Shown here one piece after another: positions 1 to 23,573 of a DNA stretch of 64,000 bases. The stretch covers positions 1 through 64,000 of the forward strand of contig NZ_JACXXG010000024.1 in NCBI RefSeq assembly GCF_014764705.1, given 5' to 3'. How positions within the stretch are numbered: the stretch's first letter is position 1; each line of letters opens with the position of its first letter. This DNA is from Stutzerimonas kunmingensis (GTDB lineage: Bacteria > Pseudomonadota > Gammaproteobacteria > Pseudomonadales > Pseudomonadaceae). Below the pieces are notes generated by a model. It was not told the DNA's origin. It worked only from the letters and a program-made list of their open reading frames with translations, and did no database searches. The translations under genes and the position numbers were made by a program.

Positions 1-42
1 GATTAGGACTTGCCACTGTTCTGCGGTGCGGTGTTTTCTCAT
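1..42 (-). CDS. IS66-type accessory protein (TnpA-like), N-terminal fragment
   Basis: Only the first 14 codons are inside the window: MRKHRTAEQWQVLI on the minus strand, after a GAGG ribosome-binding motif. The R-T-A-E-Q-W start resembles the small accessory protein that precedes tnpB and the DDE transposase in IS66 elements. The call rests on this short match and on the IS66-like terminus about 85 bases upstream, so it is tentative. Confidence 0.45.
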   Translation of the reverse strand, partial: MRKHRTAEQWQVLI

Positions 43-127
43 GGAAATAACCTCGCGTTGTTGAATGCGAGGTCACTCTAGGGCGGAAGTCAGCGGGATG
101 GCAGGATGTCTTGGAATGAACGCTTAC
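1..127 (-). mobile_element. IS66-family insertion sequence, one end only (rest lies outside the window)
   Basis: Read on the minus strand, this stretch begins at base 127 with GTAAGCGTTCA, the GTAAGCG type of terminus used by IS66-family elements. About 85 bases further in, an open reading frame starts (ATG at 42) in the position of the first IS66 accessory gene. A 7-bp inverted repeat (ACCTCGC at 50-56, GCGAGGT at 67-73) lies in the leader. Only one end is visible, so the 8-bp target duplication typical of the family cannot be tested. The element abuts the sensor-kinase gene and appears to have removed its start. Confidence 0.6.
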
Positions 128-155
128 ACTGCGTCACCTTTCGCTGACCGCCCGA

Positions 156-1502
156 ATGAGTGTCATGTTCATGTCTGTGGTGGTTGTAGTTCTCACCATA
201 GCTGGGCTGAGCTTCAATTTGCTTAGCCAGCATCACTTCGAAGTGTTGGATCGGCAGGCCTTGGTGGAGAAGCTCGAATCGACCAAGAAAATTTTCAATA
301 ACGTACGCAGCAGCGCAAACCTTGCTGAGGAGCTACCGCAGTTGCGAGCTCTGCTAGGTGCCCATCATGATTTAGCGGCGACCATCTTGAGCGAAGATGG
401 CAGAGTGCTCTTTTCTGATCCCAAGACAGTCGACGTCCCGGAAAGCTATAGGGACGCAGAACAGCAGAATATGTGGGAATGGAAATATGCCGGCCGCCTG
501 TATAGAGGATTGACTGCCCGAATCTCGGTAGCAGACCAGCCCGAACCACTTACAGCACTGTTGATTCTTGATGTCACTAACCACGCGCATTTCTTTCAGA
601 CTTTGCAGCGTTGGTTCGGCGTTGGATTAAGCGTCAGCGCTCTAATTAGTGCTGCGCTTGGCTGGATGGTAGTTAGAAGCGGTCTCAGGCCTCTGAGGCA
701 AGTTACCCATCTCGCCGCATCGATGTCAGCAAGGTCGTTGCAGGAACGAATGCCGCTTGAACCGATACCGCTTGAGTTACAGCAATTGGTTCTGTCCTTC
801 AATGCGATGTTAGGTCGCTTGGAAGATGCCTTTGTTCGGCTTTCCAATTTCTCGGCGGACATTGCTCATGAACTGCGAACCCCTGTTAGCAACCTCATGA
901 CCCACACCGAGGTGGTGCTGACCAAAAAGCGGAATATTGATGCTTATGAGGAGAATCTTTACTCCAATCTAGAGGAGTTGAAGCGTATGTCACGCATTAT
1001 TGACGACATGCTCTTTTTGGCCAAATCCGACAACGGCTTGATTATTCCCGAACAAGCGTCTATCGAACTAGCTGATGTCGTTGCTAAACTGCTTGCGTAT
1101 TACCACTTAGTGGCTGACGAACGCGATATCCGTCTCTCAGTCTCAGGCGCAGGAAATGTGCTGGGAGATAAATTAATGATTGATAGAGCGGTCTCCAATT
1201 TGTTATCCAACGCGCTGCGTTACACCCCGGTAGGGGAAACTATTTCTGTAACGATTCACGAGGCGGAAAGAACGGTAACCCTCAGCGTCGAGAATCCCGG
1301 AGGGACGATCGAGCCCGAGCACCTGGACAAGCTCTTTTATCGCTTCTATCGGGTCGATCCTGCCCGGCGCGAGGGTAGTCCAAGCAACGCTGGCCTCGGC
1401 TTGGCTATTACCAGATCTATTGTTGAGGCCCATAAAGGCAGAATCTGGTGCACCTCATTAGACGGCGTGACGGGCTTTCACATGGAATTTCCCCGCCAAT
1501 AA
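156..1502 (+). CDS. Heavy-metal (copper) sensor histidine kinase, CusS/CopS type, 5' end lost to an IS
   Basis: This is an inner-membrane two-component kinase that should sense periplasmic metal and phosphorylate a CopR/CusR regulator. From the ATG at 156 it has 448 residues: a first membrane segment (about 4-22), a periplasmic domain, a second membrane segment (about 152-172), HAMP, the phospho-acceptor His238 in AHELRTP, an N box (SNLLSNALRY) and a G box (GLGLAI). Upstream of ATG156 the codons still read L-R-H-L-S-L-T-A-R in frame, a typical kinase N terminus, until the IS end at base 127. The native start codon has therefore been removed. No strong ribosome-binding site precedes ATG156 and no partner regulator is visible, so function is uncertain. 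Confidence 0.85.
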   Translation: MSVMFMSVVVVVLTIAGLSFNLLSQHHFEVLDRQALVEKLESTKKIFNNVRSSANLAEELPQLRALLGAHHDLAATILSEDGRVLFSDPKTVDVPESYRDAEQQNMWEWKYAGRLYRGLTARISVADQPEPLTALLILDVTNHAHFFQTLQRWFGVGLSVSALISAALGWMVVRSGLRPLRQVTHLAASMSARSLQERMPLEPIPLELQQLVLSFNAMLGRLEDAFVRLSNFSADIAHELRTPVSNLMTHTEVVLTKKRNIDAYEENLYSNLEELKRMSRIIDDMLFLAKSDNGLIIPEQASIELADVVAKLLAYYHLVADERDIRLSVSGAGNVLGDKLMIDRAVSNLLSNALRYTPVGETISVTIHEAERTVTLSVENPGGTIEPEHLDKLFYRFYRVDPARREGSPSNAGLGLAITRSIVEAHKGRIWCTSLDGVTGFHMEFPRQ

Positions 1503-1561
1503 TAAAATATCGAATAAAGGTAAATATTTTAAAATCAGCCGCATAGCGATCATAAGGGACC

Positions 1562-1576
1562 TTACACGATTGTAAT
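1562..1576. promoter_or_regulatory. CopR/CusR-box-like palindrome upstream of the copper-storage gene
   Basis: TTACA-CGAT-TGTAAT is a near-perfect inverted repeat lying 112 bases before the csp start codon. It resembles the TGACA-N4-TGTNAT box described, as I recall it, for Pseudomonas CopR. This would place the storage protein under the same copper-responsive two-component control as the neighbouring kinase. The palindrome is visible; the regulator assignment is inferred. Confidence 0.45.
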
Positions 1577-1687
1577 GTTAACCATTGGAACGGACGAACT
1601 CTGAATATGTCGGATTTATGAGCTGCTAGAGGATCACCTCAGGCCAGCTCAAGACTATACGCTAAAATACGAACTTTGGAGGAAGTC

Positions 1688-2017
1688 ATGACTGAAACAA
1701 TGTTCAATAGCTGCATTCAAGCTTGTTCTAACTGCGCTCTAGTTTGCGAAGCATGCGCATCTGCCTGTTTACTTGAAGACGACGTACAAACGATGGCCCG
1801 TTGCATTGAGCTCGACAGAGATTGTGCTGACATATGTGCTCTGGCAGCCAGACTCATGAGTCGCCAGAGCGAGTTGGCTAAAGAGTTCTGTGCATTGTGT
1901 GCAAAAATTTGCCGAGCCTGCGGTGAAGAGTGTGCCAAGCATCAGATGGATCACTGCCAAGAGTGCGCGAAAGCCTGTATGAAGTGCGCTGAGGAATGTG
2001 AACGTATGGCTGTATAA
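1688..2017 (+). CDS. csp: Cysteine-rich four-helix-bundle copper-storage protein (Csp/DUF326 family)
   Basis: The 109-residue protein contains 19 cysteines, mostly in C-x2-C and C-x3-C spacings along amphipathic helices (such as SCIQAC, VCEACASAC, CALCAKICRAC). This is the hallmark of Csp four-helix bundles, which line their core with thiols and store many Cu(I) ions. There is no signal peptide, so it should be the cytosolic Csp3 type. The start is ATG 1688 with a GGAGGA ribosome-binding site at 1678-1683; a TTG four codons upstream overlaps that site and is rejected. With the upstream sensor kinase it forms a copper-handling module. A strong inverted repeat follows at 2028. Confidence 0.85.
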   Translation: MTETMFNSCIQACSNCALVCEACASACLLEDDVQTMARCIELDRDCADICALAARLMSRQSELAKEFCALCAKICRACGEECAKHQMDHCQECAKACMKCAEECERMAV

Positions 2018-2027
2018 CCAGCAAGCC

Positions 2028-2079
2028 GCTTTCCTGCCAAGATGGTATCTTATGGACTTGGTAGGAAAGCGCTTTTATT
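2028..2079 (+). terminator. Probable terminator after csp
   Basis: GCTTTCCTGCCAAG (2028-2041) pairs with CTTGGTAGGAAAGC (2057-2070) with one mismatch around a 15-base loop, followed by GCTTTTATT. The arrangement fits intrinsic termination of the csp transcript. The remaining bases to 2236 are AT-rich and show no gene. Confidence 0.6.
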
Positions 2080-2236
2080 CAGTGGCAGGACACCTACGCT
2101 CTACCCACTGAAATGACGCCTTGGCTTCTATTGTTACTCTTGTGCAAAAAAAAGAATGCCATTTGAAAAATCAGTCATAAGCCAATCGTAACGATCATAC
2201 AATTGGCTTATATCGTATTAATTCCCTTATAAATAA

Positions 2237-2536
2237 TTAACCGTTATTGATGCCAACTGGCGCGCTACGGAACTCCACTGAGTGGACAACTCCATCAGGA
2301 GTACGAATTTTGATTTCGTATGGCTGCGCACGATAGCTTGGCCAGCCTAGAATACTATCTTCGCCCATTGGCGTCACACTTAGTACATCACCGCTTTCAA
2401 GAAGAACCTTTAAAGCCTGTCTACCCTCGACTGCAGCATAGTCATGCTGCATCGTTGAGTTTCTATCAACCTCAGCCATTGCGAAGGAGGAACTTACGGC
2501 TATGCCAACAGCAAGAACTGCCGCAAATTTTTTCAT
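2237..2536 (-). CDS. Small exported protein of unknown function (possibly DUF2790-like)
   Basis: A 99-residue protein starts at ATG 2536 after an AGAGGTG ribosome-binding site; the longer in-frame version from 2593 lacks one. Residues 1-21 form a clear signal peptide (MKK, hydrophobic core, then AMA before E), so it should be periplasmic. The mature part ends in a segment that looks beta-rich (YEIKIRTPDGVVHSVEFR). Small periplasmic DUF2790 proteins near metal-response genes of Pseudomonas have a similar size and layout, but the sequence match is weak. It lies in the copper island, convergent with csp. I do not assign a function. Confidence 0.6.
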   Translation of the reverse strand: MKKFAAVLAVGIAVSSSFAMAEVDRNSTMQHDYAAVEGRQALKVLLESGDVLSVTPMGEDSILGWPSYRAQPYEIKIRTPDGVVHSVEFRSAPVGINNG

Positions 2537-3278
2537 CGTTAACACCTCTTGGTCATTGATGTTGGATAGTTTAAAGGTGTCAACCTTACACAAAGCTGAG
2601 TCTTATATTACATTAATGCTAAGCGGAGCTTACGTGTGATGTGCTCTTAACCTCATCACTTGCACTGAAAAACAGCAGAAATTTTTGTTCGATGGCCGCT
2701 GCTCGTGGTCTTCAAATTCCGGCAGCAAGAAGCGGATACTCGAACAAGGCGTAGTTCCCCCAAGCGCAACAGAATCTCAAGACAACACTAGCATTTATGC
2801 CGTGAGCCAATTTATTCTAGATAATTTCTCCTAGATTAATCAGATGTAATACCGTCTGTGGCCGGCCATGACATCTGGATGCAAAAAGCACATGCATCCG
2901 ACCGCGTAGCGGTAATTGCTGTGGAGAACCGCGTCCGGTTGAATGGCACAGGCTCTGAAAAAGCGCGCGGCGTCGGTGAGTGAACATATTGCAAATTACT
3001 TTAATCCAACGGAAGCGTTACAGGCTTCACTCAGCGCGTTTTTTTCAGGTGCTCTCAGCTACAGACTTATTCCGATAGTACGCAGTGCCTCCCAGGACTT
3101 GGTTGAAACCAGGTGGTCCCTGCCAATTCCTTGGTAAACCGGTGGACTTAAGCAGAGTTTCTGCGTCCACTCCATTTCTCTCAAAGTCCTCTAGGTCCCA
3201 CTCGAAAAAGCTAACAAGGGCTTGAAAAACAGTATTCGGAACACTGGAAACCATACCCATGCTTAGCCCATAAACGGA
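2537..3278. other. AT-rich island segment without a convincing gene
   Basis: This stretch is visibly richer in A and T than the neighbouring core genome. It contains the promoter region of the small exported protein, with a TTGACA on the minus strand near 2573-2578. It also has a short hairpin (GGATGC and GCATCC around 2876-2899). One 64-codon frame on the plus strand (2943-3137) and one 87-codon frame on the minus strand (3045-3308) are open. Neither has a recognisable family or a good start signal. The minus frame contains VDAETLLKSTGLP, vaguely like the N-terminal region of some AraC-type regulators, and may be a gene remnant. Confidence 0.4.
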
Positions 3279-3303
3279 AAACCCCTGTAGATACAGGGGT
3301 TTA
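3279..3303. repeat. Perfect hairpin next to the transposon end (possible bidirectional terminator)
   Basis: AAACCCCTGTA (3279-3289) and TACAGGGGTTT (3292-3302) form an 11-bp perfect stem with a two-base loop. A-tracts and T-tracts flank it on both sides, so it could stop transcription in either direction. It lies just inside the Tn7-like end, where it would insulate island cargo from glmS transcription. Confidence 0.55.
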
Positions 3304-3307
3304 GGCA

Positions 3308-3371
3308 TTGTGTCAGACTTTAATAGCTTGTGTCAGACTTTATTATATTGTGTCAATCTTTATTCCGTGCA
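3308..3371. mobile_element. Tn7-like transposon end with three tandem TnsB-type repeats at attTn7
   Basis: Three direct repeats of exactly 20 bp start at 3308, 3328 and 3348. Their common core is TTGTGTCARWCTTTA followed by WT. Read from glmS into the island they become AATAAAG-type motifs resembling the TnsB sites of the Tn7 right end. The last base of the glmS stop codon is 3399, so the canonical insertion centre 25 bp downstream is 3374. An element ending at 3371, with target bases 3372-3376 (GCCAG), fits that rule. The inferred terminus is TGCACGG instead of the usual TGT. Family and position knowledge come from Tn7; the exact boundary is inferred. Confidence 0.6.
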
Positions 3372-3398
3372 GCCAGCTGCGTTTGGCGCAGTTTCCGG

Positions 3399-5249
3399 TC
3401 ATTCCACCGTTACTGACTTGGCCAGATTGCGCGGCTGGTCGACGTCCGTCCCGCGCAATACGGCGACGTAGTAGGAAAGCAGTTGCAGCGGCAGGGTGTA
3501 GAGGATCGGTGCGAGCACGTCGTGGATATGCGGCATGCTGACGATGAAGGTGCCCTCTCCGTTCTCGATGCCGGCCTCGCGATCGGCAAAGACAATCAGC
3601 TCACCGCCGCGGGCGCGCACTTCCTGCAGGTTGGACTTGAGCTTTTCTAACAGCTCGTTGTTTGGTGCCACAGTGACCACCGGCATGTCCGCGTCCACCA
3701 GTGCTAGCGGGCCGTGCTTCAGCTCCCCCGCCGGATAGGCTTCGGCGTGGATATAGGAGATTTCCTTGAGCTTGAGCGCGCCTTCCATCGCCACCGGATA
3801 TTGCGCGCCGCGACCCAGAAACAGCGTGTGATGCTTCTCGGCGAAGTGCTCGGAAATCTTCTCCACCGTAGCATCCATCGCCAGCGCCTCGCCCAGGCGG
3901 GTCGGCAGCCGGCGCAACTCGTCGACCAGTTCGGCCTCCAGCGCAGGGGAAAGCGTGCCCCGGACCTGGCCCAGCGACAGCGTCAGCAACAGCAGACCAA
4001 CCAGCTGGGTGGTGAAGGCCTTGGTCGAAGCCACGCCGATTTCCGGGCCGGCCTGGGTGAGCAGGGTCAGGTCCGACTCGCGCACCAGCGAACTGATGCC
4101 GACGTTGCAGATCGCCAGGCTCGCCAGATAGCGACCTTCCTGCTCGGTGCGCGCCTTGGCGTTACGCAGCGCTGCCAGCGAATCTGCCGTCTCGCCGGAC
4201 TGGGAGATAGTGACGAACAGGGTGTCCGGCTGCACCACCACCTTGCGGTAGCGAAATTCGCTGGCAACCTCGACCTGACAGGGTATGCCGGCCAGTTCCT
4301 CCAGCCAGTAACGCGCGACCATGCCGGCGTGATAGCTGGTGCCACAGGCGACGATCTGCACATTGCGCACTTTGGCGAACAGCTCGGCGGCTTGCGGTCC
4401 GAACGCCTGCACCAAGACCTGATGATCGCCTAGCCGGCCTTCCAGAGTGCGCTGCACCACCTTCGGCTGCTCGTGAATCTCCTTGAGCATGAAGTGGCGG
4501 TACTCGCCCTTGTCCGCCGCCTCGGCGCCTTCGTGATACTGCACGGCCTCGCGCTGCACCGGCTGGCCGTCGACATCCCAGATCTGCACCGCATCGCGGC
4601 GGATTTCGGCGATGTCGCCCTCTTCCAGATACATGAAACGGTCGGTGACCTGACGCAGCGCCAGCTGGTCCGAGGCGAGGAAGTTTTCGCCCAGGCCCAG
4701 ACCGATCACCAGCGGGCTGCCGCTGCGCGCGGCGAGCAGGCGATCCGGCTGCCGCGCACTGATCACCGCCAGTCCGTAGGCGCCATGCAGTTCCTTGACT
4801 GCCGCCTTCAGCGCAGCGGTGAGGTCGCCGAGCGAATCGAGCTTGTGGTGCAGCAGGTGCACGATGACTTCGGTGTCGGTATCCGAGACGAATACGTAAC
4901 CCATCTCCTTGAGCTGAGCCCGCAGCGCCTCGTGGTTCTCGATGATGCCGTTGTGCACCACGGCCAGATCATCACCGGAGAAATGCGGATGGGCATTGCG
5001 CTCGCAGGGCGCGCCATGGGTTGCCCAGCGGGTATGCGCAATGCCCAGGCGGCCGGCCAGCTGCGTGTGTTGCTGAGCCTGCTCCAGTTCGGCGACCTTG
5101 CCATTACGGCGCAGACGCTCGAGTGTGCCGTTCTCGTCCAGCACGGCAACGCCGGCACTGTCATAGCCACGGTATTCCAGGCGCTTGAGGCCCTCGAGAA
5201 GGATCGCGGTGATGTTGCGTTCGGCGACGGCGCCAACGATGCCACACAT
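3399..5249 (-). CDS. glmS: Glutamine--fructose-6-phosphate aminotransferase (isomerizing)
   Basis: GlmS makes glucosamine-6-phosphate from fructose-6-phosphate and glutamine, the first committed step to peptidoglycan and LPS amino sugars. The 616-residue protein starts MCGIVGA, so Cys2 is the N-terminal nucleophile of the glutaminase domain. The C-terminal half has two SIS domains (ACGTSYH near 305; [18 protein letters not shown] near 480) and ends in SVTVE, the conserved tail whose DNA is the TnsD recognition site of attTn7. It lies two bases downstream of glmR and in line with glmU. Its 3' flank is occupied by the Tn7-like end. Confidence 0.98.
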
Positions 5250-5251
5250 GC

Positions 5252-6034
5252 TCAGGTCTCCAGATTGGTTTCGACGGCCACGCAGATCAGTTTGACGCCG
5301 CGGGCCAGGATGCTGCTGCGCGCCTCGTCGCTGAGGCGCTCATCGGTAATCAGGGTGTGCACGCTGCTCCAGGGCAGCTCAAGATTGGGGATGCGCCGAC
5401 CGAACTTGTCGGCCTCGGCGAGCACGATGACTTCCCGCGCGACGTCGGCCATCACTCGGGACAACCCTAGCAGTTCGTTGAAGGTGGTGGTGCCCCGCTC
5501 CAGATCGATGCCATCGGCACCGATGAACAGTTGGTCAAAGTCATAGGAGCGCAGCACCTGCTCGGCGACCTGGCCCTGAAAGGACTCCGAATGCGGGTCC
5601 CAGGTGCCGCCGGTCATCAGCAGCACCGGCTCATGCTCCAGCTCGCGCAGCGCATTGACCACGTTCAGCGAATTGGTCATCACCACCAGCCCGTGCTTGT
5701 GGCCGAGCTGAGGAATCATCGCCGCCGTGGTGGTGCCGCTGTCGATGATGATCCGCGCGTGCTCACGGATGCAGCCAACCGCAGCACGGGCGATCGCCTG
5801 CTTCCAGGGCGAAACGGGCTGCACGCTGTCGCCGATCAGCTCCTGAGGCAGCGGAACCGCACCGCCGTAGCGGCGCAGCAGCAGGCCATTTTTCTCCAGC
5901 GCAGCGAGGTCCTTGCGGATGGTGACTTCCGAGGTTTCGAAGCGCCGCGACAGCTCGTCCACACTGACCTCGCCGAGCTCGTTGAGCAAGGCGAGGATCG
6001 CGTGGCGACGTTGTGGAGTGTTGCGCTTCGACAT
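5252..6034 (-). CDS. glmR: DeoR-family transcriptional regulator between glmU and glmS
   Basis: The 260-residue protein has an N-terminal winged helix ([24 protein letters not shown], around residues 20-43) and a DeoR C-terminal sugar-phosphate sensor domain with the typical DSGTTT motif. P. aeruginosa carries a DeoR regulator named GlmR at this position, and control of amino-sugar synthesis is the likely job. I start it at ATG 6034 ([14 protein letters not shown]); the open frame upstream to 6307 is arginine/serine-rich noise running into glmU. The stop lies two bases before glmS, so the two are probably co-transcribed. A palindromic operator lies immediately upstream of the start. Confidence 0.92.
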
Positions 6035-6040
6035 AGATAT

Positions 6041-6075
6041 GTTTCGATTCGAAAGATAACGGCTCGAATCAAAAC
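6041..6075. promoter_or_regulatory. Palindromic operator upstream of glmR
   Basis: GTTTCGATTCGA (6041-6052) and TCGAATCAAAAC (6064-6075) are inverted repeats with one mismatch over 12 bases, separated by 11 bases. They sit 7 bases upstream of the glmR start codon. The left arm is part of a second, smaller palindrome (TTTCGATTCGAAA). This size and position suit a DeoR-family operator, so autoregulation of glmR-glmS is inferred. Confidence 0.55.
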
Positions 6076-6164
6076 ATAAGTGCTTACGGGCTGCAAGCTG
6101 CTGGCGATCCGGCGTCACCCACCAACAGTGGGAAGCAGGCCGGCATCCCGCGCCGAACGCGGAT

Positions 6165-7526
6165 CTACGACTGCTTCTTCGGTCGCTGCCAGCCTTCGAT
6201 ATTGCGCTGGCGACCGCGGCCGAGGCCCAGGGTATGGGCCGGCACGTCCTCGGTGATCGTCGAACCGGCGCCGGTCGTTGCGCCATCACCGAGATGCAGC
6301 GGTGCAACCAGCGAACTGTTGGAGCCGATGAAAACGTCCTCGCCCATCACCGTCCTGAATTTGTTGGCGCCATCGTAGTTGCAAGTGATGGTACCGGCAC
6401 CGATGTTAGTCCGCGCGCCGATCTCGGCGTCACCGAGGTAGCTGAGATGCCCGGCCTTGGCGCCATCACCGAGGGTCGCGTTCTTCAGCTCGACGAAGTT
6501 GCCGACATGCGCCTTGGCGCCGAGCACGCTGCCTGGACGCAGCCGCGCGAACGGGCCGCAATCGGCACTCTCGCCGACTACCGCACCCTCAAGATGGGAG
6601 TTGGCCTTGACGATCGCACCGCGACGCAACGTGCTGTCCTTGATCACGCAGTTCGGTCCGATCTGCACATCGTCCTCGATGGTCACCATGCCTTCGAGAA
6701 TGACATTGACGTCGATCAGCACGTCTCGCCCGACCTCTACCTCGCCACGCAGATCGAAACGTGCCGGGTCGCGCAGCGTCACGCCCCGGGCCATCAAACG
6801 ACGAGCGGCACGCTGCTGGTAATGGCGTTCCAGCTCGGCCAGCTGGATACGGTCGTTGGCACCTTGCACTTCCATAGCGTCCAGCGGCTGCTCGGTGGCC
6901 ACGCGCAGGCCGTCGGCCACAGCCATGGCGATGACGTCAGTCAGGTAGTACTCGCCCTGGGCATTGCTGTTGGACAGGCGACCCAGCCATTCGCCGATAC
7001 GGCTGCCCGGTACGGCGAGAATCCCGGTATTGCCCTCGCGGATCGCCTTCTGCTCGTCGCTGGCATCCTTGTGCTCGACGATAGCCTGCACTTCGCCGCG
7101 CGCGTCGCGGACGATGCGTCCATAGCCGGTTGGGTCGTCCAGCTTCACCGTCAGCAGCGCGAGTTGCTCCGGCCCTACCTTCTGCAACAGGCGCTGCAGG
7201 GTGTCGGCTTCGATCAGTGGTACGTCACCGTAAAGGATCAGCACGCGCTCGGCCGACAGATTCGGCAACGCCTGGGCTACAGCATGGCCGGTACCCAGCT
7301 GCTCGGCCTGAACGACGAAGGCGAGATCATCGCCGGCCAGTCGCTGGCGCACCTGCTCGGCACCGTGGCCAATAACCACCTGGATGCTTTTCGGCTGCAA
7401 TGCACGCGCGGTGTCGATCACGTGCCCGAGCATGGATTTTCCGGCGACCGGATGCAGAATCTTGGGCAGCGCCGAACGCATGCGCGTGCCCTGGCCAGCG
7501 GCGAGAATGACGATATCGAGAGACAT
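6165..7526 (-). CDS. glmU: Bifunctional UDP-GlcNAc pyrophosphorylase / glucosamine-1-phosphate acetyltransferase
   Basis: GlmU acetylates glucosamine-1-phosphate and then couples it to UTP, giving UDP-GlcNAc for peptidoglycan and LPS. The 453-residue length is standard. The N-terminal uridyltransferase domain carries LAAGQGTRM (residues 8-16). The C-terminal half (from about 230) shows the hexapeptide repeats of a left-handed beta helix and the acetyltransferase segment with [10 protein letters not shown]. It lies upstream of glmR-glmS, so the flanking glm genes provide its substrate pathway. It is separated from atpC by a terminator. Confidence 0.98.
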
Positions 7527-7602
7527 GAAGCGATTCCTGAGCGGTATCGGCCCGTCAGCTCACCCGTACGTCAGAGTGCAGCTGGTATAAGCGCCGACAA
7601 AT

Positions 7603-7636
7603 GGCAGAAAAAGAAAAAGGGTAGCCAAGGCTACCC
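7603..7636 (-). terminator. Rho-independent terminator of the atp operon
   Basis: On the minus strand GGGTAGCC and GGCTACCC (7619-7626 with 7629-7636) form an 8-bp stem. It is followed by a long T-rich tract (the A-rich run at about 7607-7618 on the plus strand). It sits between the atpC stop and the glmU start and ends the ATP synthase transcript. Confidence 0.85.
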
Positions 7637-7668
7637 TTTTACTCGTGCGCGATGAAGTCGCTTGCCGA

Positions 7669-8097
7669 TCAGTGTCGGCCGTACTTCTTGCGCATTGCCT
7701 CGATGGTTCGCAGCTGGGCTGCGGCCTCGGCCAGGCGAGCGGCGGCGGAGCCGTAATCGAACTCCGCGCCCTTCTCGTGCAGGGCCTTCTCGGCAGCTTT
7801 GACGGCAGCCTGAGCGGCAGCTTCGTCGATGTCCTTGGCGCGCGTAGCGGTATCGGCGAGAACCTTCACCATGTTCGGCTGCACTTCGATGAAGCCGCCG
7901 GAGATGTAGAAGATCTCCTCGTCACCACCCTGCTTGATCACTCGAACCGGACCCGGCTTGAGATCAGTCAGCAGCGGCGCGTGACCCGGCAGAACGCCGA
8001 TGTCACCCAGGTTGCCGTGGGCGACGACCATTTCCACCAGCCCCGAGAACAGCTCTTCTTCCGCACTGACGATGTCGCAATGCACTGTCATAGCCAT
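7669..8097 (-). CDS. atpC: F1 ATP synthase subunit epsilon
   Basis: This is the rotor subunit of the F1 central stalk, which couples rotation to catalysis and can inhibit ATP hydrolysis. The 142-residue protein has the N-terminal beta sandwich (GHAPLLT) and a C-terminal two-helix region rich in Ala, Lys and Glu. I choose ATG 8097 ([13 protein letters not shown]), as in E. coli MAMTYHLDVVSAE. The GAGG ribosome-binding site is 7 bases before it but only one base before the alternative ATG at 8103. It is the last gene of the atp operon. Confidence 0.96.
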
Positions 8098-8171
8098 GTT
8101 CATGCCTCGGTAATCAGCCTGACCAGCAGCTGCCGGTCAGGCTGGTTGGCGCCCGCGAACGGGCGCGCCAG

Positions 8172-9578
<1,407 letters not shown>

Positions 9579-10445
9579 TTAAACCGCGGCAGCGCCGCCG
9601 ACGATTTCCGAAATTTCCTGAGTGATCGCAGCCTGACGGGCCTTGTTGTAGACCAGTTGCAGGTCGCCGATCAGCTCACCGGCGTTGTCGGTTGCGTTCT
9701 TCATGGCAATCATCCGCGCGGCCTGTTCGGCTGCGCCGTTCTCAACCACCGCCTGATAGGCCTGGGACTCGATGAACCGTACCAGCAGAGCATCCAGCAG
9801 CTGCTGGGCGTCCGGCTCGTAGAGGTAGTCCCACTGACCTTTCTTGACCGGCTCGGCGTTCTCGTCTGCGGCCAGCGGCAGCAGTTGGTCGACCGTGGGC
9901 TTCTGGGTCATGGTGTTGATGAACTTGTTGGATACCAGGTACAAGCGATCGATACGGCCATTGTGGAAGCCGTCGAGCATGACCTTGACGCTGCCGATCA
10001 GATCATTGATCGACGGCTCTTCGCCGAGGTTGCCGATCGCTGCGACGACGTTGCCGCCGAAGCTGCGGAAGAAGCTCGCGCCTTTGTTGCCGATCACGCA
10101 GAGGTCGACTTCGACCTTCTGATCGTGCCACTCCTTCATGTTCTTGATCAGGACCTTGAACAGGTTGATGTTCAGGCCACCGCAAAGACCACGATCGGTC
10201 GACACGACGATGTAGCCGACACGCTTGACCGGACGCTCTACCATGAACGGATGACGGTATTCCGGGTTGGCAAAGGCCAGATGGCCGATTACCTGCCGGA
10301 TCCGCTCCGCATAAGGGCGGCTGGCAGCCATGCGCATCTGTGCCTTGCGCATCTTGCTGACCGCCACCTTTTCCATGGCGCTGGTGATCTTCTGCGTGCT
10401 TTTGATGCTCGCAATCTTGCTGCGAATCTCTTTTGCGCCTGCCAT
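9579..10445 (-). CDS. atpG: F1 ATP synthase subunit gamma
   Basis: This is the central rotor shaft that turns inside the alpha3beta3 hexamer. The 288-residue protein begins [20 protein letters not shown] and ends in an Ala-rich helix with [17 protein letters not shown]. Both are the conserved N- and C-terminal coiled coil of gamma. The middle Rossmann-like domain includes [11 protein letters not shown]. Length and position between atpA and atpD are standard. Confidence 0.98.
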
Positions 10446-10495
10446 TTGACACCTATCGGGTTAGCAGGCGGGAGCCTCACGGCTCCCGCTGCGGC

Positions 10496-12040
10496 TTACC
10501 AGCTTTGAGTGGCCTTGAACTTCTCGATACCGGCCTTCAGGCCTGCGTCGATTTCGTCATTGAAGTCACCCTTCACGTTGATCTTCGCCATCAGATCGGC
10601 GAACTCGCGGTTGAAGAAGGCGATCAGGGCCTGCTCGAAGGCGCCAACCTTGGCCACTTCCACGTCCGTCAGGAAACCGCGCTCGGCGGCGTACAGGGAC
10701 AGGGACATGTCGGCGATGGACATCGGCGCGTACTGCTTCTGCTTCATCAGCTCGGTAACACGCTGACCATGCTCCAGCTGCTTGCGGGTCGCTTCGTCGA
10801 GATCGGAAGCGAACTGCGCGAACGCAGCCAGTTCACGGTACTGAGCCAGAGCGGTACGGATACCACCGGACAGCTTCTTGACGATCTTGGTCTGAGCAGC
10901 ACCACCAACACGGGATACCGAGATACCGGCGTTGACGGCCGGACGGATACCTGCGTTGAACATGGCCGATTCCAGGAAGATCTGACCGTCGGTGATGGAA
11001 ATCACGTTGGTCGGAACGAACGCGGAAACGTCGCCCGCCTGGGTTTCGATGATCGGCAGAGCGGTCAGCGAGCCGGTCTTGCCAGTTACGGCACCGTTGG
11101 TGAACTTCTCGACATACTCTTCGGAAACGCGCGACGCACGCTCCAGCAGACGGCTGTGGAGATAGAACACGTCGCCCGGATAGGCTTCACGTCCCGGCGG
11201 ACGACGCAGCAGCAGGGATATCTGGCGGTACGCCACAGCCTGCTTGGACAGATCGTCATACACGATCAGCGCGTCTTCACCGCGGTCGCGGAAGTACTCG
11301 CCCATGGTGCAACCAGCGTAAGGCGCCAGGTACTGCAGGGCAGCGGATTCGGAAGCGGACGCAGCAACAACGATGGTGTTGTGCAGCGCGCCGTGCTCTT
11401 CCAGCTTGCGAACCACGTTGGCGATGGTCGACTGCTTCTGACCGATGGCTACGTAGACACAGCGGATGCCGCTGTTCTTCTGGTTGATGATGGCGTCGAT
11501 GGCCAGGGCGGTCTTGCCGATCTGACGGTCGCCGATGATCAGCTCACGCTGGCCACGGCCTACCGGGATCATGGCGTCGACCGACTTGTAACCGGTCTGC
11601 ACCGGCTGGTCGACGGACTTACGCCAGATCACGCCCGGCGCAACCTTCTCGACTGCGTCAGTTGCCTGAGCGTTGATCGGGCCTTTGCCATCAATCGGGT
11701 TACCCAGTGCGTCGACAACGCGGCCCAGCAGTTCCGGACCAACCGGAACCTCAAGGATGCGGCCGGTGCACTTGGCGCTCATGCCTTCGGTCAGGCCCAG
11801 GTAGTTACCCAGAACCACGGCACCTACGGAGTCCTGCTCCAGGTTCAGTGCCATACCAAAGATGCCGCCAGGGAACTCGATCATTTCGCCGTACATGACG
11901 TCGGCCAGACCGTAGATACGTACGATACCGTCAGAAACGCTGACGACGGTGCCCTCATTACGGGCTTGAGCAGCGACATTCGATTTCTCAATGCGCTGCT
12001 TGATGATTTCACTAATCTCGGAAGGATTCAGTTGCTGCAT
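10496..12040 (-). CDS. atpA: F1 ATP synthase subunit alpha
   Basis: This is the non-catalytic nucleotide-binding subunit of the F1 hexamer and supplies the arginine finger. The 514-residue protein has Walker A GDRQIGKT (170-177), Walker B LIVYDDLS and the signature [14 protein letters not shown] near residues 365-380. The short N-terminal helix [17 protein letters not shown] binds the delta subunit. It lies between atpH and atpG with short gaps. Confidence 0.98.
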
Positions 12041-12055
12041 GCCATGACCCTCAAA

Positions 12056-12592
12056 TCAGGATTTCAACGATTCGGCCAACTGGCTCAGTTTGCCGCGGAC
12101 CGAACCGTCGACAACCACATCACCGGCGCGAATCAACACGCCGCCGATCAGCGCAGGATTCACGGCCTGCTGGAGGTTGACGGTGCGATCTAGCCGCTTC
12201 GACAGGGCGGCAGCCAAAGTTTGGAGTTGCTCGTTGCTGAGCTCGAAGGCGGTTTCAACTTCTGCCTCGAGCGTTTTCTCGGCTTGCGCCTTGATGTCCT
12301 CGTACAGCTCCCACACGGTCGGCAGTACCGACAGGCGATCGTTCTCGCCAAGGGTCTGGACGTAGTTGCGGAAAGCTTCGTCGGCGTCGTCACCGAGTAG
12401 ACGCACCAGCCCCTGGACCTTGCTTTCGCTGGTCAGGCGGGGGTCGTTCAGCAACGCTGCGACTTCTGGGACTTCAACAGCGATGGCGGCCAGGTTCAGC
12501 ATTTTCGACCAGGACTCGGTCGTTCCTGCGGCGCTGGCAAACTCGAAAGCGGCTTTCGCGTAAGGCCGAGCAAGCGTCTGGGTATTGATCAT
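12056..12592 (-). CDS. atpH: F1 ATP synthase subunit delta
   Basis: Delta joins the F1 head to the peripheral stalk. The 178-residue protein has the characteristic start TLARPYAKAAFEFA and the C-terminal motif NPALIGGVLIRAGDVVVDGSVRGKL, both OSCP/delta signatures. It lies between atpF and atpA, as in other proteobacterial atp operons, with only a dozen or so bases on each side. Confidence 0.97.
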   Translation of the reverse strand: MINTQTLARPYAKAAFEFASAAGTTESWSKMLNLAAIAVEVPEVAALLNDPRLTSESKVQGLVRLLGDDADEAFRNYVQTLGENDRLSVLPTVWELYEDIKAQAEKTLEAEVETAFELSNEQLQTLAAALSKRLDRTVNLQQAVNPALIGGVLIRAGDVVVDGSVRGKLSQLAESLKS

Positions 12593-12604
12593 CGCTTGCC
12601 TCGC

Positions 12605-13075
12605 TTAGAGTTGGGAGGCCAGTTTTTCGACCAGCTCGTTGTGCACCTTGGCGTCCACCTGGGACTCCAGGATCTTCTCTGCACCGGCGACGGCAAGAGC
12701 CGCTACCTGATTGCGCAGTTGGTCCCTGGCACGGTTCACTTCCTGTTCGATCTCGGCGCGGGCGCCGGCGACCAGTCGCTCGCCTTCGACACGTGCCTGC
12801 TGCTTGGCTTCCTCGATGATCGCATTGGCGTGCTTGTTCGCCTGCTCGATGATCTGGGCTGCCTGCTCCTTGGTCTCGCGGAGGGTGTTGGACACCTTGT
12901 CCTGAGCCAGTTTCAGGTCTTGCTGCGCACGGCCTGCCGCATCCAGTCCTTCAGCGATCTTCTTCTGGCGCGCTGCCATGGCTGCCGTGATTGGCGGCCA
13001 GACGAGCTTCATGCAGAACCAGACGAAGATAGCGAAGGCGAGCGTTTGACCGAACAGCGTCAAGTTAATGTTCAC
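12605..13075 (-). CDS. atpF: Fo ATP synthase subunit b
   Basis: Subunit b forms the dimeric peripheral stalk. The 156-residue protein has one N-terminal membrane segment (about 5-25, [26 protein letters not shown]) followed by a long charged coiled coil rich in Ala, Glu, Lys and Gln. It starts with GTG (13075) after a GAGGTAA ribosome-binding site. It lies between atpE and atpH. Confidence 0.97.
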
Positions 13076-13167
13076 AGCGATTTACCTCGTGCTATCTCGT
13101 TCAACGCGGGAGTCATTCCACGGCGACGGGGCTCGCCCGGCGAACCCCATCTCAAACCGGAAAGTGA

Positions 13168-13410
<243 letters not shown>

Positions 13411-13452
13411 CTAAGGGGGGTTAAGGTTTTTCGGTTAAAGCGTTAGCGGTTT

Positions 13453-14720
<1,268 letters not shown>

Positions 14721-14781
14721 CTGAATTCCATCGCTGTAGCAGGCCGCGTAAATAATTGTCCGCAGTCAAAAAAGCGCGGCG

Positions 14782-14810
14782 AGTATAGGAGCAGGCCAGC
14801 CAGGGTTCAA
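14782..14810 (-). promoter_or_regulatory. Sigma-70 promoter of the atp operon
   Basis: On the minus strand TTGAAC (14810-14805) and TATACT (14787-14782) are separated by exactly 17 bases, close to the sigma-70 consensus. The element reads into atpI and lies in the gap after the parB stop at 14854. No other promoter of this quality is visible for the nine-gene atp operon. Confidence 0.7.
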
Positions 14811-14853
14811 CTCTCCGGTAGTATTTTCCGACCGGCACTACAAACAATTTGTA

Positions 14854-15726
14854 TCAGCGGATGTGGGCCAATACACCCTGCAGTTCATCCAGCGAACTGT
14901 AGCGGATCACAAGCTGCCCTTTGCCCCTCTGTCCGTGCTTGATCTGCACCGGAGAGCCCAGGCGTTCCGCCAGGCGCTGCTCCAGACGGCTGATGTCCGG
15001 GTCGACCTTGACTTCGGCTTTCGGTGTTTCCTTGCTGCTCAACCACTGACGCACCAGGGCTTCGGTCTGGCGCACGGTCAGCCCACGTGCGACAACGTGC
15101 CGCGCGCCTTCGACCTGCTGTTCCGCCGGCAGACCTAGCAATGCTCGCGCGTGGCCCATCTCCAGGTCACCGTGTGACAGCAGCGTCTTGATCTCTTCCG
15201 GCAGCGCAATCAGGCGCAGCAAATTGCTTATCGAGACACGCGACTTGCCTACCGCGTCGGCAACTTGCTGCTGGGTCAGCTGGAACTCCTGTTGCAAGCG
15301 CTGCAGTGCGACGGCTTCTTCGATCGGATTCAGGTCTTCGCGCTGGATGTTCTCGATCAGCGCCATGGCAATGGCCGCCTCGTCCGGCACTTCGCGAACC
15401 AGCGCCGGCACCTTCTCCAACCCGGCCTGCTGGCTGGCGCGCCAGCGACGTTCACCGGCGATGATCTCGAAACGGCCACCGCTGACGGGACGCACCACGA
15501 TCGGCTGCATCACGCCGTGGTTCTTGATCGACTGGGCCAGCTCCTCCAGGGCCTGCGGGTCCATATCGCGGCGCGGCTGGTACTTGCCGCGCTGGATCAG
15601 GTCCAGCGGCAGGTGCTGGAGTTCACGGGTATCGACCTTCGCAGCCTCTTCCTGCATTGCCGAAACGCTGGCGCCGCCGAGCAGGGCGTCGAGTCCACGG
15701 CCTAGGCCTCTTTTCTTGGTCGCCAT
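14854..15726 (-). CDS. parB: Chromosome-partitioning protein ParB
   Basis: ParB binds parS sites near the origin, spreads as a CTP-dependent clamp and recruits ParA and SMC. The 290-residue protein has the N-terminal ParA-stimulating start MATKKRGLGRGLDALLGG, the CTP-binding GERRWRA box (91-97), a helix-turn-helix DNA-binding core (about 130-190) and a C-terminal dimerisation domain. It follows parA by 9 bases. Two matching parS sites lie about 11 kb away inside recF. Confidence 0.97.
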   Translation of the reverse strand: MATKKRGLGRGLDALLGGASVSAMQEEAAKVDTRELQHLPLDLIQRGKYQPRRDMDPQALEELAQSIKNHGVMQPIVVRPVSGGRFEIIAGERRWRASQQAGLEKVPALVREVPDEAAIAMALIENIQREDLNPIEEAVALQRLQQEFQLTQQQVADAVGKSRVSISNLLRLIALPEEIKTLLSHGDLEMGHARALLGLPAEQQVEGARHVVARGLTVRQTEALVRQWLSSKETPKAEVKVDPDISRLEQRLAERLGSPVQIKHGQRGKGQLVIRYSSLDELQGVLAHIR

Positions 15727-15735
15727 GAGTAGTCC

Positions 15736-16524
15736 TTATGCGGGGGCGCCACGCGCCGACTGGCGCTGGCGTCGCGACAGTTCACCGGCCAGGGCCAGAT
15801 AGGCCAGAGCGCCCTTGGATTGCTTGTCGTAGACCAGCGCCGGCATGCCGTGGCTGGGGGCCTCGGCGAGCCGGACGTTGCGCGGGATAACGGTGTCGTA
15901 GAGTTTGTCGCCGAAATGCGCCTTGAGCTGTTCGGATACATCGTTGGTCAGACTGCTGCGCGGGTCGTACATGGTGCGCAGCAGGCCTTCGATCTTCAGG
16001 CTGGGGTTGAGCGCCTGGCCGATACGCTGGATCGAATTGACCAGATCGGTAAGCCCTTCGAGCGCGTAATACTCGCACTGCATGGGAATGATGACGCCGT
16101 CCGACGCAGCCAGCGCGTTGATGGTCAGCATCGACAGCGACGGCGGGCAATCGATGAGGATGTAGTCGTAGTTCTCCCGCACCGGTGCCAGTGCTTCACG
16201 CAGGCGTTTTTCCTTGGCCGGCAGATTCAGCAGGGCCACTTCCGCCGCGGTCAGGTCGCGATTGGCCGGCAGCAACTGATAGCCGCCATGCTCGGAGAAC
16301 TGCATGGCATCCACCAGGCTGCATTCGCCGATCAGTACGTCGTAGATCGAGTACTCCAGTCCGAGCTTGTCCACACCGCTACCAGTGGTGGCGTTGCCCT
16401 GGGGGTCGAGATCGATCAGCAACACGCGGCGACGCGTGGCAACCAGCGAAGCCGCAAGGTTGATGCAGGTGGTGGTCTTGGCGACACCGCCCTTCTGGTT
16501 GGCAATGGCGAAAACTTTAGCCAT
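15736..16524 (-). CDS. parA: Chromosome-partitioning ATPase ParA (Soj type)
   Basis: ParA binds the nucleoid as an ATP dimer and moves ParB-parS complexes apart. The 262-residue protein has the deviant Walker A KGGVAKTT (11-18), Walker A' LLIDLDPQGNATTGSG and Walker B YILIDCPPSL. There is no N-terminal helix-turn-helix, so it is the small chromosomal type. It lies in the rsmG-parA-parB order usual for Pseudomonas. Confidence 0.97.
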   Translation of the reverse strand: MAKVFAIANQKGGVAKTTTCINLAASLVATRRRVLLIDLDPQGNATTGSGVDKLGLEYSIYDVLIGECSLVDAMQFSEHGGYQLLPANRDLTAAEVALLNLPAKEKRLREALAPVRENYDYILIDCPPSLSMLTINALAASDGVIIPMQCEYYALEGLTDLVNSIQRIGQALNPSLKIEGLLRTMYDPRSSLTNDVSEQLKAHFGDKLYDTVIPRNVRLAEAPSHGMPALVYDKQSKGALAYLALAGELSRRQRQSARGAPA

Positions 16525-16542
16525 GGTCAGTGTCTGTCCGGG

Positions 16543-17190
16543 TCATGAAGTGCGGCGCAGTATCAGCAGATGGCGCTGGCCTTGGCAACCGGGAACCTTG
16601 AGTACGTGACAGGCATCGAGGCGGAAGTCGGCGGGCAGCCGTTGCAGTTCGTCGTCCGGCTGCACGCCCTTCATCGCCAACCAGCGCGTCTGAGTATTGC
16701 CCAGATGCCGCGTCCAGCTGGCGAAGTCCTCAAGGGAACTGAAGGCGCGCGAGGTGATGCCGTCGAAGGCTTCCGCCGGCTGGAACTGCTCGACGCGGCT
16801 GTGCACGACCTCGAGGTTGGCCAGTTTCAGCTCCAGCTTCACCTGCGTCAGGAATCGCGTCTTTTTCCCATTGGAGTCCAGCAGCGTGAAGCTGCGATCA
16901 GGAAACATGATCGCCAGCGGCACGCCAGGCATGCCACCACCGCTGCCGACGTCCAGCCAGGTCTGTCCGGACTCGGCAACGAAGGACACCACGCTCAGGC
17001 TGTCGAGCAGGTGTCGCGAAACCATTTCGTCGGGATCGCGCACCGCGGTGAGGTTGTAGGCCTTGTTCCACTTGATCAGCAGTGCCAGGTAGGCCAGCAA
17101 CTGCTGCTGTTGCCCTTCACTCAGCTCGACGCCGAGCGCCTGGGCGCCGCGCACGAGTTCGGCGGCATGGGATTCGCTGACCAGACTCAT
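16543..17190 (-). CDS. rsmG: 16S rRNA (guanine527-N7)-methyltransferase
   Basis: RsmG methylates G527 of 16S rRNA using SAM. The 215-residue protein has the SAM-binding loop [14 protein letters not shown] (79-92) and the [12 protein letters not shown] segment near residue 45 typical of GidB/RsmG. Its ATG shares one base with the mnmG stop (TGATG), so it is translationally coupled to mnmG. Confidence 0.97.
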
Positions 17191-19082
17191 CAGGCGCTCT
17201 GCTCCAGCTGCTGGCCGGCATTGCGCTTCTTCAGATGAATCATCAGCAGCGACACCGCAGCGGGCGTGACTCCCGGAATACGCGAGGCCTGCCCGAGCGT
17301 CTCAGGCCTTGCCTGACCGAGCTTGTGCTGAATCTCCTTCGACAAGCCCGGAATCGTTGTGTAGTCGAGATTCTCCGGCAAGGCGATGTTTTCGCTGGCA
17401 CGCAGTCGTTCGATCTCGTCCTGCTGCCGTTCGATGTAGCCGGCGTACTTGGTCTTAATCTCGACCTGCTCGGCGACCTGAGGATCCTGCGCACCGTCAC
17501 CGGTCAGTTCGATCAGGCTCTGGTAATCGATTTCCGGACGGGCCAGCAGATTGAGCAGGTTGTACTCGCGAGCCAGCGGGCTGCCGAAACGCTCGGCGAT
17601 GGCATCGCCCTGTGGTGTGCCGGGACGAACCCAGCAACTCTTCAGGCGCTGCTCCTCGAGCTCGATACCTTCGCGCTTGGCGCAGAACGCAGCCCAGCGG
17701 GCATCGTCCACCAGACCCAGTTCGCGGCCCTTCTCGGTCAGACGAAGATCGGCATTGTCCTCACGCAGGATCAGCCGGTATTCGGCACGCGAGGTGAACA
17801 TCCGATAGGGCTCCTGGGTACCGAGGGTGATCAGGTCATCGACCAGCACGCCTAGGTAGGCCTCATCGCGACGCGGACACCAGCTGTCCTTGCCCTGCGC
17901 CCGCAGCGCAGCGTTGGCTCCGGCGAGCAGTCCCTGGGCACCAGCTTCTTCGTAACCGGTGGTGCCATTGATCTGGCCGGCGAAGAATAGCCCGCCGATC
18001 ACCTTGGTCTCCAGGCTGTACTTGAGATCACGTGGGTCGAAGTAGTCGTACTCGATGGCATAGCCCGGCCGTACGATGTGGGCGTTCTCCATGCCACGGA
18101 TGCTCTGCACGATCTGCAGCTGCACATCGAACGGCAACGAGGTGGAGATGCCGTTGGGATACAGCTCATGAGTGGTCAGGCCTTCGGGCTCGAGGAAAAC
18201 CTGATGGCTGTCCTTGTCGGCAAAACGATGGATCTTGTCTTCGATCGACGGGCAGTAGCGCGGCCCGACGCCTTCGATCACGCCGGAATACATCGGCGAA
18301 CGATCGAGGTTGGCGGCAATGATTTCGTGCGTTCGCGCGTTGGTGTGAGTGATCCAGCAGCTGACCTGCGGCGGGTGTTGCTCACGATTGCCCATGAACG
18401 ACATCACCGGCAGCGGTGTGTCGCCCGGTTGCTCGGTCATAAGAGAAAAATCCACCGAACGACCATCGATACGTGGCGGCGTACCGGTCTTCAGCCGACC
18501 GACGCGCAGCGGCAACTCGCGCAGCCGGTGAGCCAAAGCGATCGAAGGCGGATCGCCTGCGCGCCCGCCTGAATAGTTCTGCAGGCCAATGTGGATAAGT
18601 CCACCGAGGAAGGTCCCGGTGGTCAGCACCACGGAATCCGCGAGGAAACGCAGGCCCATCTGGGTCACGACACCCCGGACCTGATCCTGCTCGACGATGA
18701 GGTCGTCCGCCGCCTGTTGAAATATCCACAGGTTCGGCTGGTTTTCCAGAGTGTCACGAATAGCAGCTTTGTAGAGCACGCGGTCAGCTTGCGCTCGGGT
18801 GGCTCGAACGGCTGGCCCCTTGCGGCTGTTGAGCACGCGAAACTGGATGCCGCCCTTGTCGGTGGCCATCGCCATGGCCCCACCCAACGCATCGATTTCC
18901 TTGACCAGATGACTCTTGCCGATGCCACCGATGGCTGGGTTGCAGCTCATCTGGCCAAGGGTTTCCACATTGTGGCTGAGCAGCAGGGTCTTCACGCCCA
19001 TGCGTGCCGCTGCAAGCGCAGCCTCGGTGCCGGCATGGCCGCCGCCGATAACGATCACGTCAAAACGGGAAGGGAAGTCCAC
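17190..19082 (-). CDS. mnmG: tRNA uridine-5-carboxymethylaminomethyl modification enzyme MnmG
   Basis: With MnmE, MnmG installs the cmnm5/nm5 group on U34 of several tRNAs, using FAD and methylene-THF. The 630-residue protein has the FAD-binding [10 protein letters not shown] near residue 13, [22 protein letters not shown], and a C-terminal helical domain for MnmE contact. I choose the second of two adjacent GTG codons (19082, [15 protein letters not shown]); the GAGG site is correctly spaced for it. Upstream lies a DnaA-box-rich region. Confidence 0.97.
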
Positions 19083-19568
19083 CACGCACCTCGTGCCTGT
19101 TCAGATGGGAATTCGGGAAGCCGCGAAGTATAGGGATTTAGCCAGTGCTAAAGAAGGGCTCTGAGCAAAAAATGACCAACCATCTGGCGGAGGCGAGTCG
19201 GTGGATAAACATTAGAAATAGAAAAGAAATATATAAGAAGCTTATTTATGTGTTTATAAATGGTGAAGCTCATTTCTGTGGATAACCACGTGGAGCCCTC
19301 TGCAGGCCTTTCTTGTGGCGAAGGATAAACCTGTGCTGCGGCTGGGCGCTGACGGTGTGAATACCGTCAGCATCCTGTGGATTAAAGTTAATCTTATGCA
19401 CAGAGGGGTTTTTCACCAGCTTACGCCATGACTTTTCTACTGCCCTTAGGCAGCCTTTTCCACAGGGCTCATGGCGGGAATTTTCGGCAGCCGAATGCCA
19501 TCTCCACGAATTTTCAGCGTAGCGTTGTGCATGAAAGGGGGGCGGGCGTGGTTAGCGCCCGTGCAGTG
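19083..19568. other. DnaA-box-rich, AT-rich intergenic region (second origin-like element)
   Basis: Between mnmG and mnmE lies an AT-rich stretch (19209-19262) containing AAAAGAAATATATAAG. It is followed by DnaA-box-like 9-mers: GGTGGATAA (19200-19208), a perfect TGTGGATAA (19277-19285), TGTGGATTA (19376-19384), TTATGCACA (19394-19402) and TTTTCCACA (19456-19464). The order of the AT run, the CTGTGGATA box, the GGATTAAA block and the CTGCCCTNAGG block is the same as in the rpmH-dnaA region. A GACGGT/ACCGTC hairpin lies near 19351-19369. Earlier work on Pseudomonas reported origin activity in this neighbourhood, as I recall. No gene is seen here. Confidence 0.6.
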
Positions 19569-20936: not shown

Positions 20937-20964
20937 GCGGCCTCCTTTCTGGACGGCAGATAGC

Positions 20965-20990
20965 AGAACGCCCCAATCAAGGGGCGTTCT
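20965..20990 (-). terminator. Hairpin between yidC and mnmE
   Basis: AGAACGCCCC (20965-20974) and GGGGCGTTCT (20981-20990) form a perfect 10-bp stem with a six-base loop in the 72-bp gap between yidC and mnmE. No T-tract follows on the minus strand, so it may be an attenuator, a pausing site or a transcript-processing stem instead of a full terminator. Confidence 0.5.
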
Positions 20991-21008
20991 GCATTGGCGG
21001 TTGAGGCG

Positions 21009-22679: not shown

Positions 22680-22681
22680 GG

Positions 22682-22927
22682 TTACTCGGCCATCGGAGAT
22701 GAATTGGAAGTGTTATGAGAAGGCACGGGATCGTAGCCACCGGGATTCCACGGATGGCAGCGCCCCAACCTGCGCAGGCTCAGCCAGCCGCCACGCAACA
22801 GGCCATGAGTTTCGATGGCCTCGAGTGCATAGCAGGAGCAGCTTGGATAGAAACGGCAGTGACTGGCCATCATCGGACTGATGGCGTACTGGTAGACCCT
22901 GATCGAAGCGATGGCCAATTTACGCAT
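22682..22927 (-). CDS. yidD: Membrane protein insertion efficiency factor YidD
   Basis: YidD is a small membrane-associated protein that assists YidC-dependent insertion. The 81-residue protein shows the family core [31 protein letters not shown], with conserved cysteines and the RFYPSCS motif, and [14 protein letters not shown] near the C terminus. It overlaps the rnpA end by 8 bases and precedes yidC by 2. Confidence 0.95.
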
Positions 22928-23315: not shown

Positions 23316-23329
23316 TACCTGTTCCGATA

Positions 23330-23552: not shown

Positions 23553-23573
23553 TTTCCAACCAGCCCTGCATGG

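Follow-up and report, generated by a model that had tools for sequence, protein, structure and literature searches.

Tn7 inserts with its right end nearest glmS, has the termini TGT...ACA, and carries transposase-binding sites that are close-packed at the right end and spaced at the left. As described in an excerpt of PMC2918618, its insertion point lies ~20 bp downstream of glmS, a 5-bp duplication is left there, and TnsABC plus TnsD are required. Excerpts of Faure et al. 2023 (PMC10293859) report tandem dual tniQ-tnsD genes in Tn7-like transposons at 1,048 loci, and Tn6411 of Pseudomonas aeruginosa is presented in part of PMC11232968 as a Tn7-like element at glmS with 20-bp TnsB sites and end losses in some copies. 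Tn7-like elements with a truncated tnsD are on record in a portion of PMC7500258, while the corresponding portion of PMC8649781 adds nothing on stacked or decayed copies; a full-text literature search returned no paper on a Tn7-like genomic island at glmS in stutzeri.

The window analysed here is the opening 64 kb of C31, one of the 113 contigs in which a Stutzerimonas kunmingensis genome was assembled. It very probably holds the right end and adjoining cargo of a stranded Tn7-like transposon downstream of glmS, with the tns block deleted and two insertion sequences inside the element. The family shares with canonical Tn7 an insertion ~20 bp downstream of glmS, the 5-bp duplication, TnsABC plus TnsD, and the contrast between close-packed right-end and spaced left-end sites, but differs in its termini (TGG...CCA instead of TGT...ACA), in having two TnsD/TniQ proteins and, in this genome, in the absence of its own tns genes. 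Two tandem TniQ/TnsD genes, as in the dual tniQ-tnsD transposons in the excerpts of Faure et al. 2023, are found in the intact relatives of the element. Set beside the window by its published description, seen in part, Tn6411 is likewise a Tn7-like element at glmS in Pseudomonas with 20-bp TnsB sites; it differs in its TnsABCDE set and antibiotic-resistance cargo.

Pieces of this family are also found on plasmids. Window positions 3030-3420 match 21 plasmid records (19 Pseudomonas, 2 Stenotrophomonas), one of which has a whole tns block and one a TnsA beside the end. Plasmid 2 of P. aeruginosa RW109 (LT969521.1, 91678-103549) carries the same order of tnsA, tnsB, tnsC, a 554-aa TniQ/TnsD and TnsD2, with TnsA, TnsB and TnsC 85%, 86% and 94% identical to those of genome G052, a relative with an intact block; it matches the window at the right end (86% over 107 bp) and in the tnsD2 tail (81% DNA identity). 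It differs in being on a plasmid and in having kept a transposition block, whose annotation shows further transposase genes interspersed, whereas the copy in the window has lost its own. Tandem tniQ/tnsD genes and Tn7-like elements at glmS are known, and what is new is this decayed, non-autonomous member. It offers an exact natural record of a Tn7-like island becoming fixed, with boundaries at the level of single bases, and in related genomes this target is occupied by copies of the element that are intact, partly decayed or stripped of their machinery.

A transposon right end beside glmS

The end lies next to an ORF that, judging from its sequence, we take to be glmS, and comprises the following features.

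3261..3375, no strand: right (glmS-proximal) transposon end, terminus at 3375, reading 5'-TGGCTGCACGGAATAAAG inward on the minus strand
3309..3325, plus strand: inner TnsB-type site (predicted binding)
3329..3345, plus strand: middle TnsB-type site (predicted binding)
3349..3365, plus strand: outer TnsB-type site (predicted binding)
3376..3380, no strand: target-site duplication GCTGC, glmS side; its second copy, beside the left end, is absent in this genome
3399..5249, minus strand: ORF presumed to be glmS, its 3' end the attTn7 target

An earlier note on this DNA, made from the single sequence, had described three tandem repeats with an exact 20-bp period starting at 3308, 3328 and 3348, and had read them as a Tn7-like end at attTn7. 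The repeats are present (3308-3327, 3328-3347 and 3348-3367, at spacings of 20 and 20), and comparison with same-genus glmS loci supports that reading. The site pattern, with up to two mismatches allowed, matches six places in the whole 4.86-Mb genome: the three in the window, C11:654, C11:777 and one on contig C41; the reversed pattern, searched genome-wide in the same way as a control, matches none. By this pattern the genome has a single right end. The right end consists of three close-packed sites and the left end of three spaced ones (C11:654 and C11:777 from the pattern search, and ~709 read directly), an arrangement also seen in the left end of G027, so that each end bears several predicted TnsB-binding sites and the two ends carry them in opposite orientation, as is expected of a Tn7-like element. 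That the repeats arose by chance, or form a local regulatory array with no link to a transposon, is vanishingly improbable, given the empty control and the tns sequence that adjoins them in all 9 of the other same-genus genomes with the exact site; comparison with these relatives refutes it. The sites at 3309-3365, with their 20-bp period, make up the end of a Tn7-like transposon that faces glmS, its right end. The earlier note would have abandoned its reading had the repeats occurred downstream of glmS without any island; no such case was seen, the nine relatives all having tns sequence there.

The exact boundary comes from comparing insertions. The 3' part of glmS (window 3377-3900) is matched in 56/56 same-genus genomes, and in 7 of the 30 same-genus glmS loci that were fetched the right end stands directly beside it (this genome, G027, G054, G005, G011, G030 and G041; coordinates make G022 an eighth genome with sites beside glmS). 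All seven loci diverge immediately past CCA (3373-3375 here), that is, after ...GTGCAGCCA or ...GTGAAGCCA, so that 3375 is the terminus, with 5'-TGGCTGCACGG as its inward reading, and GCTGC at 3376-3380 is the duplication. The duplication is centred 21 bp from the glmS stop codon, as in an attTn7 insertion with the right end proximal. The earlier note was therefore right to place the end at attTn7, but the terminus that it gave, TGCACGG, and its 5-bp duplication, GCCAG, were off by a few bases: a terminus guessed from one sequence may miss by several bases, and it is the comparison of insertions that settles the boundary. A regular expression for the empty site matched one (L051) of the four loci tried, and L059 and L065 were compared by eye.

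Transposition genes in relatives and their loss here

At least one exact site occurs in 10 of the 56 same-genus genomes, and in 9 of these 10 tnsA or a fragment of it adjoins this end (tblastn), the exception being the genome studied here. A complete example, in G027 (C1:4713635 to 4755271), is 41,637 bp long with TGG...CCA termini and ACACG on both sides; its left end reads 5'-TGGATGCCC, with the opening sequence TGGATGCCCAGAATATAG, and its right end reads TGGCTGCACGGAATAAAG inward. Both this right end and that of G052 are identical to window 3261..3375 (115/115 bp). In the genome studied here, the first 27 bp of the left and right ends agree at 21 positions, a level that 0 of 20,000 shuffles reach.

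In intact relatives the right end is followed by tnsA, tnsB, tnsC, tnsD1, tnsD2 and cargo, in that order, with tnsA adjoining the glmS-proximal end (tblastn). The block of G052 encodes a TnsA of 284 aa, a TnsB of 722, a TnsC of 486, a TniQ/TnsD of 554 aa and a second TnsD of 558 aa; Pfam recognises TnsA, TnsB and the TnsC AAA+ regulator (PF08722; PF09299 Mu-transpos_C; PF05621/PF13401 TniB/AAA), as well as two TniQ/TnsD target selectors (PF06527, PF15978). Both ends in G052 are flanked by ACACG. In G030, ATTAC lies beside the right end, and its complement GTAAT comes directly after a left end that stands on a different contig (by eye), although that left end finishes in CTA rather than CCA (by eye). 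A 5-bp target duplication is thus found in G027, G052 and G030 (by eye), and in the genome studied here as the glmS-side copy only. G054 has CACGC after CCA on the right and ACACG on the left, which would make an exact duplication only with the loss of one base, and for the elements of G011 and G041 a search of 57-58 kb with a strict motif found no left end with a matching duplication.

The G027 element shares 99.9% identity with the 3,132 bp of window 128-3259 and 100% with 3261-3375, and between these two stretches the window is missing the transposition genes.

3045..3263, minus strand: C-terminal remnant of tnsD2 (residues 487-558 of 558, ~72 codons)
3259..3261, no strand: deletion junction, where a single additional T (3260) stands between 3259 and 3261

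The block absent between the junction points measures 8,051 bp by comparison with G052 and 10,701 bp by comparison with G027, whose tnsD1 carries an insertion; it contains tnsA, tnsB, tnsC, tnsD1 and most of tnsD2. The remnant is 97.2% identical to the TnsD2 of G052 over 72 residues (tblastn), and at the DNA level its region matches the tnsD-type gene on plasmid LT969521. An 87-aa ORF called to 3308 runs from the remnant into the transposon end and has no Pfam match. With one extra base and no bases evidently shared with the lost ends (by eye), the junction looks like the product of illegitimate joining. The earlier note had seen no sign of the expected tnsA start inside the end, and had offered decay, mobilisation in trans or a family with a different gene order as reasons; tnsABC and tnsD1 are absent here. 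Decay is borne out, whereas the order of the intact relatives, with tnsA beside the right end and tnsBC, tnsD1, tnsD2 and cargo after it, leaves no need for a different family order.

An autonomous Tn7-like transposon has its own tnsABC, which the element in this genome lacks. The sole match to TnsA (PF08722) in the genome is on C41, where a distant tnsA-tnsB-tnsC-tniQ set (L002:253-5251) lies beside restriction/methylase-type genes (by eye), with an inverted repeat upstream of its tnsA. This set was rejected as the machinery of the element: the five G052 Tns proteins had no tblastn match in C41:1-20000 at 1e-5, and there are no right-end-like sites beside its tnsA (by eye). A search of the genome for TnsB, run without a positive control, returned nothing. 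Since the only PF08722 match belongs to the distant C41 set and the TnsB search came back empty, we call the element non-autonomous, with no cognate transposase found in the genome; on these sequence comparisons, its movement would need TnsABC(D) supplied in trans.

Cargo, insertion sequences and the probable partner left end

The part of the element that adjoins the lost block carries the following.

1..127, no strand: one end of an insertion sequence, with the duplication ACTGCGTC at 128-135; it splits the element across contigs
156..1502, plus strand: CusS-like metal sensor histidine kinase (Pfam PF21085 CusS, HisKA, HATPase_c, HAMP)
1676..2017, plus strand: cysteine-rich DUF326 protein (Pfam PF03860), presumably copper-storage-like
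2237..2593, minus strand: small protein without a Pfam match, its start resembling a signal peptide by eye

An Rfam search of window 1-6000 came back empty. The insertion sequence at 1-127, which we take to be IS66-like from its GTAAGCG end and 8-bp duplication, hits the start of the kinase gene, and the listed ORF starts downstream of the start that G027 suggests (by eye). Tips of one kind of insertion sequence stand at the ends of C11, C74, C67 and the window, with the 8-bp duplications ACGAAATT and ACTGCGTC, so that the element appears to have been split in the assembly by two copies. A cluster of three copies of the same tip lies at the far (right) end of C31 (L122:15660-16158).

The remaining pieces can be placed on the G027 element. 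C11:127-803 is identical to its positions 677-1 and is the probable partner left end; C74:127-7447 corresponds to 668-7998, C47:1-754 to 9017-8264, C67 (reversed) to 12235-18062 (96.5%) and 18202-27697 (98.8%), and the window from 128 onward to 27690-30821 and 41523-41637. These stretches of C11, C74, C47, C67 and the window together cover ~27.2 of the 30.8 kb that the element has outside its tns block, in a contig order that is itself inferred; element positions 7999-8263, 9018-12234 and 18063-18201 found no place on the contig sequence read (20.0 of 32.0 kb for C47). A loss of 27 kb of cargo was considered and rejected, most of it being on C74, C47 and C67. Parts of the cargo are matched a second time, less closely, at other places in the genome, for instance at 75% on C47 and at 71% on C70.

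On C11 a hybrid-kinase gene, a truncated host gene, breaks off midway at the left end, which is flanked by TGTTG; the complement of GCTGC is absent beside it, since the terminus stands directly against the truncated kinase. Of the partner end and second duplication that the earlier note had asked for, then, the genome supplies the end but not the duplication (expected there as GCCAG, and as GCTGC on the boundary found here), and the pairing of the two ends rests on their similarity to G027 and on contig mapping. The same kinase reads on into a receiver-like domain in G007 (by eye), the closest relative by glmS (97%), and the part missing here has weak matches in the own genome, the best being 72% over 116 bp. 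G027, G052 and G054 have ~1 kb between this kinase and the left end, with the same order and orientation of the two. This flank is most simply read as a deletion that stops exactly at the left terminus, which would explain the absent left copy of GCTGC.

Alternative histories and a second element

On the reading that we prefer, the element would have inserted ~20 bp downstream of glmS, presumably targeted by one of its two TnsD-type selectors, by a cut-and-paste mechanism with 5-bp duplication like that of Tn7, TnsB binding the three close-packed right-end and three spaced left-end sites as its Tn7 counterpart does. The intact form would have carried tnsA-tnsB-tnsC-tnsD1-tnsD2 just inside the right end, followed by cargo including the metal-sensing kinase and the DUF326 protein. 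A deletion with a non-homologous joint would have removed tnsABC, tnsD1 and most of tnsD2 in this genome, two insertion sequences would have entered the element, and host DNA beside the left end would have gone missing up to the exact left terminus, leaving both ends to persist without a cognate transposase and the element stranded.

The left flank is where this account can be challenged. The window's right end and the C11 left end could stem from two insertions of one family, or to one element torn apart by a larger rearrangement, as the left end abuts mid-kinase with flank TGTTG in place of the glmS-side duplication, and the same left end at a non-glmS flank in four other genomes indicates that the family occupies other sites. 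In G007, moreover, the kinase (C1:141214) lies ~167 kb from glmS (the contig taken as circular) and is inverted with respect to the rest of the relatives compared, pointing to an inversion of the chromosome with one breakpoint close to attTn7; for this lineage that makes a simple local deletion less than certain, and a larger rearrangement at its left flank is possible. Nevertheless, the genome has only one right end by site pattern, its sequences match the missing part of the kinase only weakly, and the kinase's place ~1 kb from the left end in G027, G052 and G054 makes a local deletion the simpler explanation, even though the arrangement here is unproven; we accordingly give two insertions or a torn element little credence. 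An inversion between insertion sequences was also tried as the source of the kinase-adjoining left end and set aside, G007 alone among the genomes compared having the kinase both far away and inverted.

It is similarly improbable that the element reached glmS in trans, as a non-autonomous passenger that had already lost its transposase. Such a passenger would account for both ends and ~27.2 of 30.8 kb of non-tns sequence being common to G027 with no tns block between them, but G007 has the same right end and, after it, the same GCTGC; beside that end a tnsA fragment covering residues 1-203 matches its G052 counterpart at 99.5% identity. From this the lineage seems to have had a tns-bearing copy at this site, a comparison that dates the deletion relative to the insertion only indirectly.

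In G007 (L083:8450 to L085:12620), moreover, the interval from this right end to glmS is taken up by a second Tn7-like element, distinct from the first, with a TnsA ~51% identical to that of the first. The junctions run from the right end through GCTGC to a second element ending ...AAAACCA, then GCTGC and glmS, and the tnsA beside this end is cut at residue 203. G052 (L119:16847 onward, with L116 on the glmS side) has the same junctions with ACACG for GCTGC: this right end, then ACACG, then the left end of the second element. Its layout is rearranged or misassembled, the pieces being on two contigs and the left end of the first element on the glmS contig. One speculative and rather unlikely interpretation is that TnsB-type sites left at attTn7 keep it closed to the same family (target immunity) and open to other Tn7-like families, which would fit G007, where a different element lies between right end and glmS, and the matching junction of G052. 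If this were true, decayed copies would persist not just as metal-resistance islands but also in the role of immunity tags.

The left end recurs away from glmS. The same 677-bp left end lies at an identical non-glmS flank in G032, G051, G019 and G021 (L110, L112, L114 and L115), which share at least 11.4 kb (including 400 bp of flank) at 98.7-99.97% identity; tblastn of the fetched loci found no tns gene at these copies, and no right end lies within the 11-18 kb examined. Within the left-end block, an 86-bp stretch (L009:560-645) recurs at ~80-87% identity, at a number of positions, in G027, G007, G032, G052 and the genome studied here, and may be a piece of another repeat.
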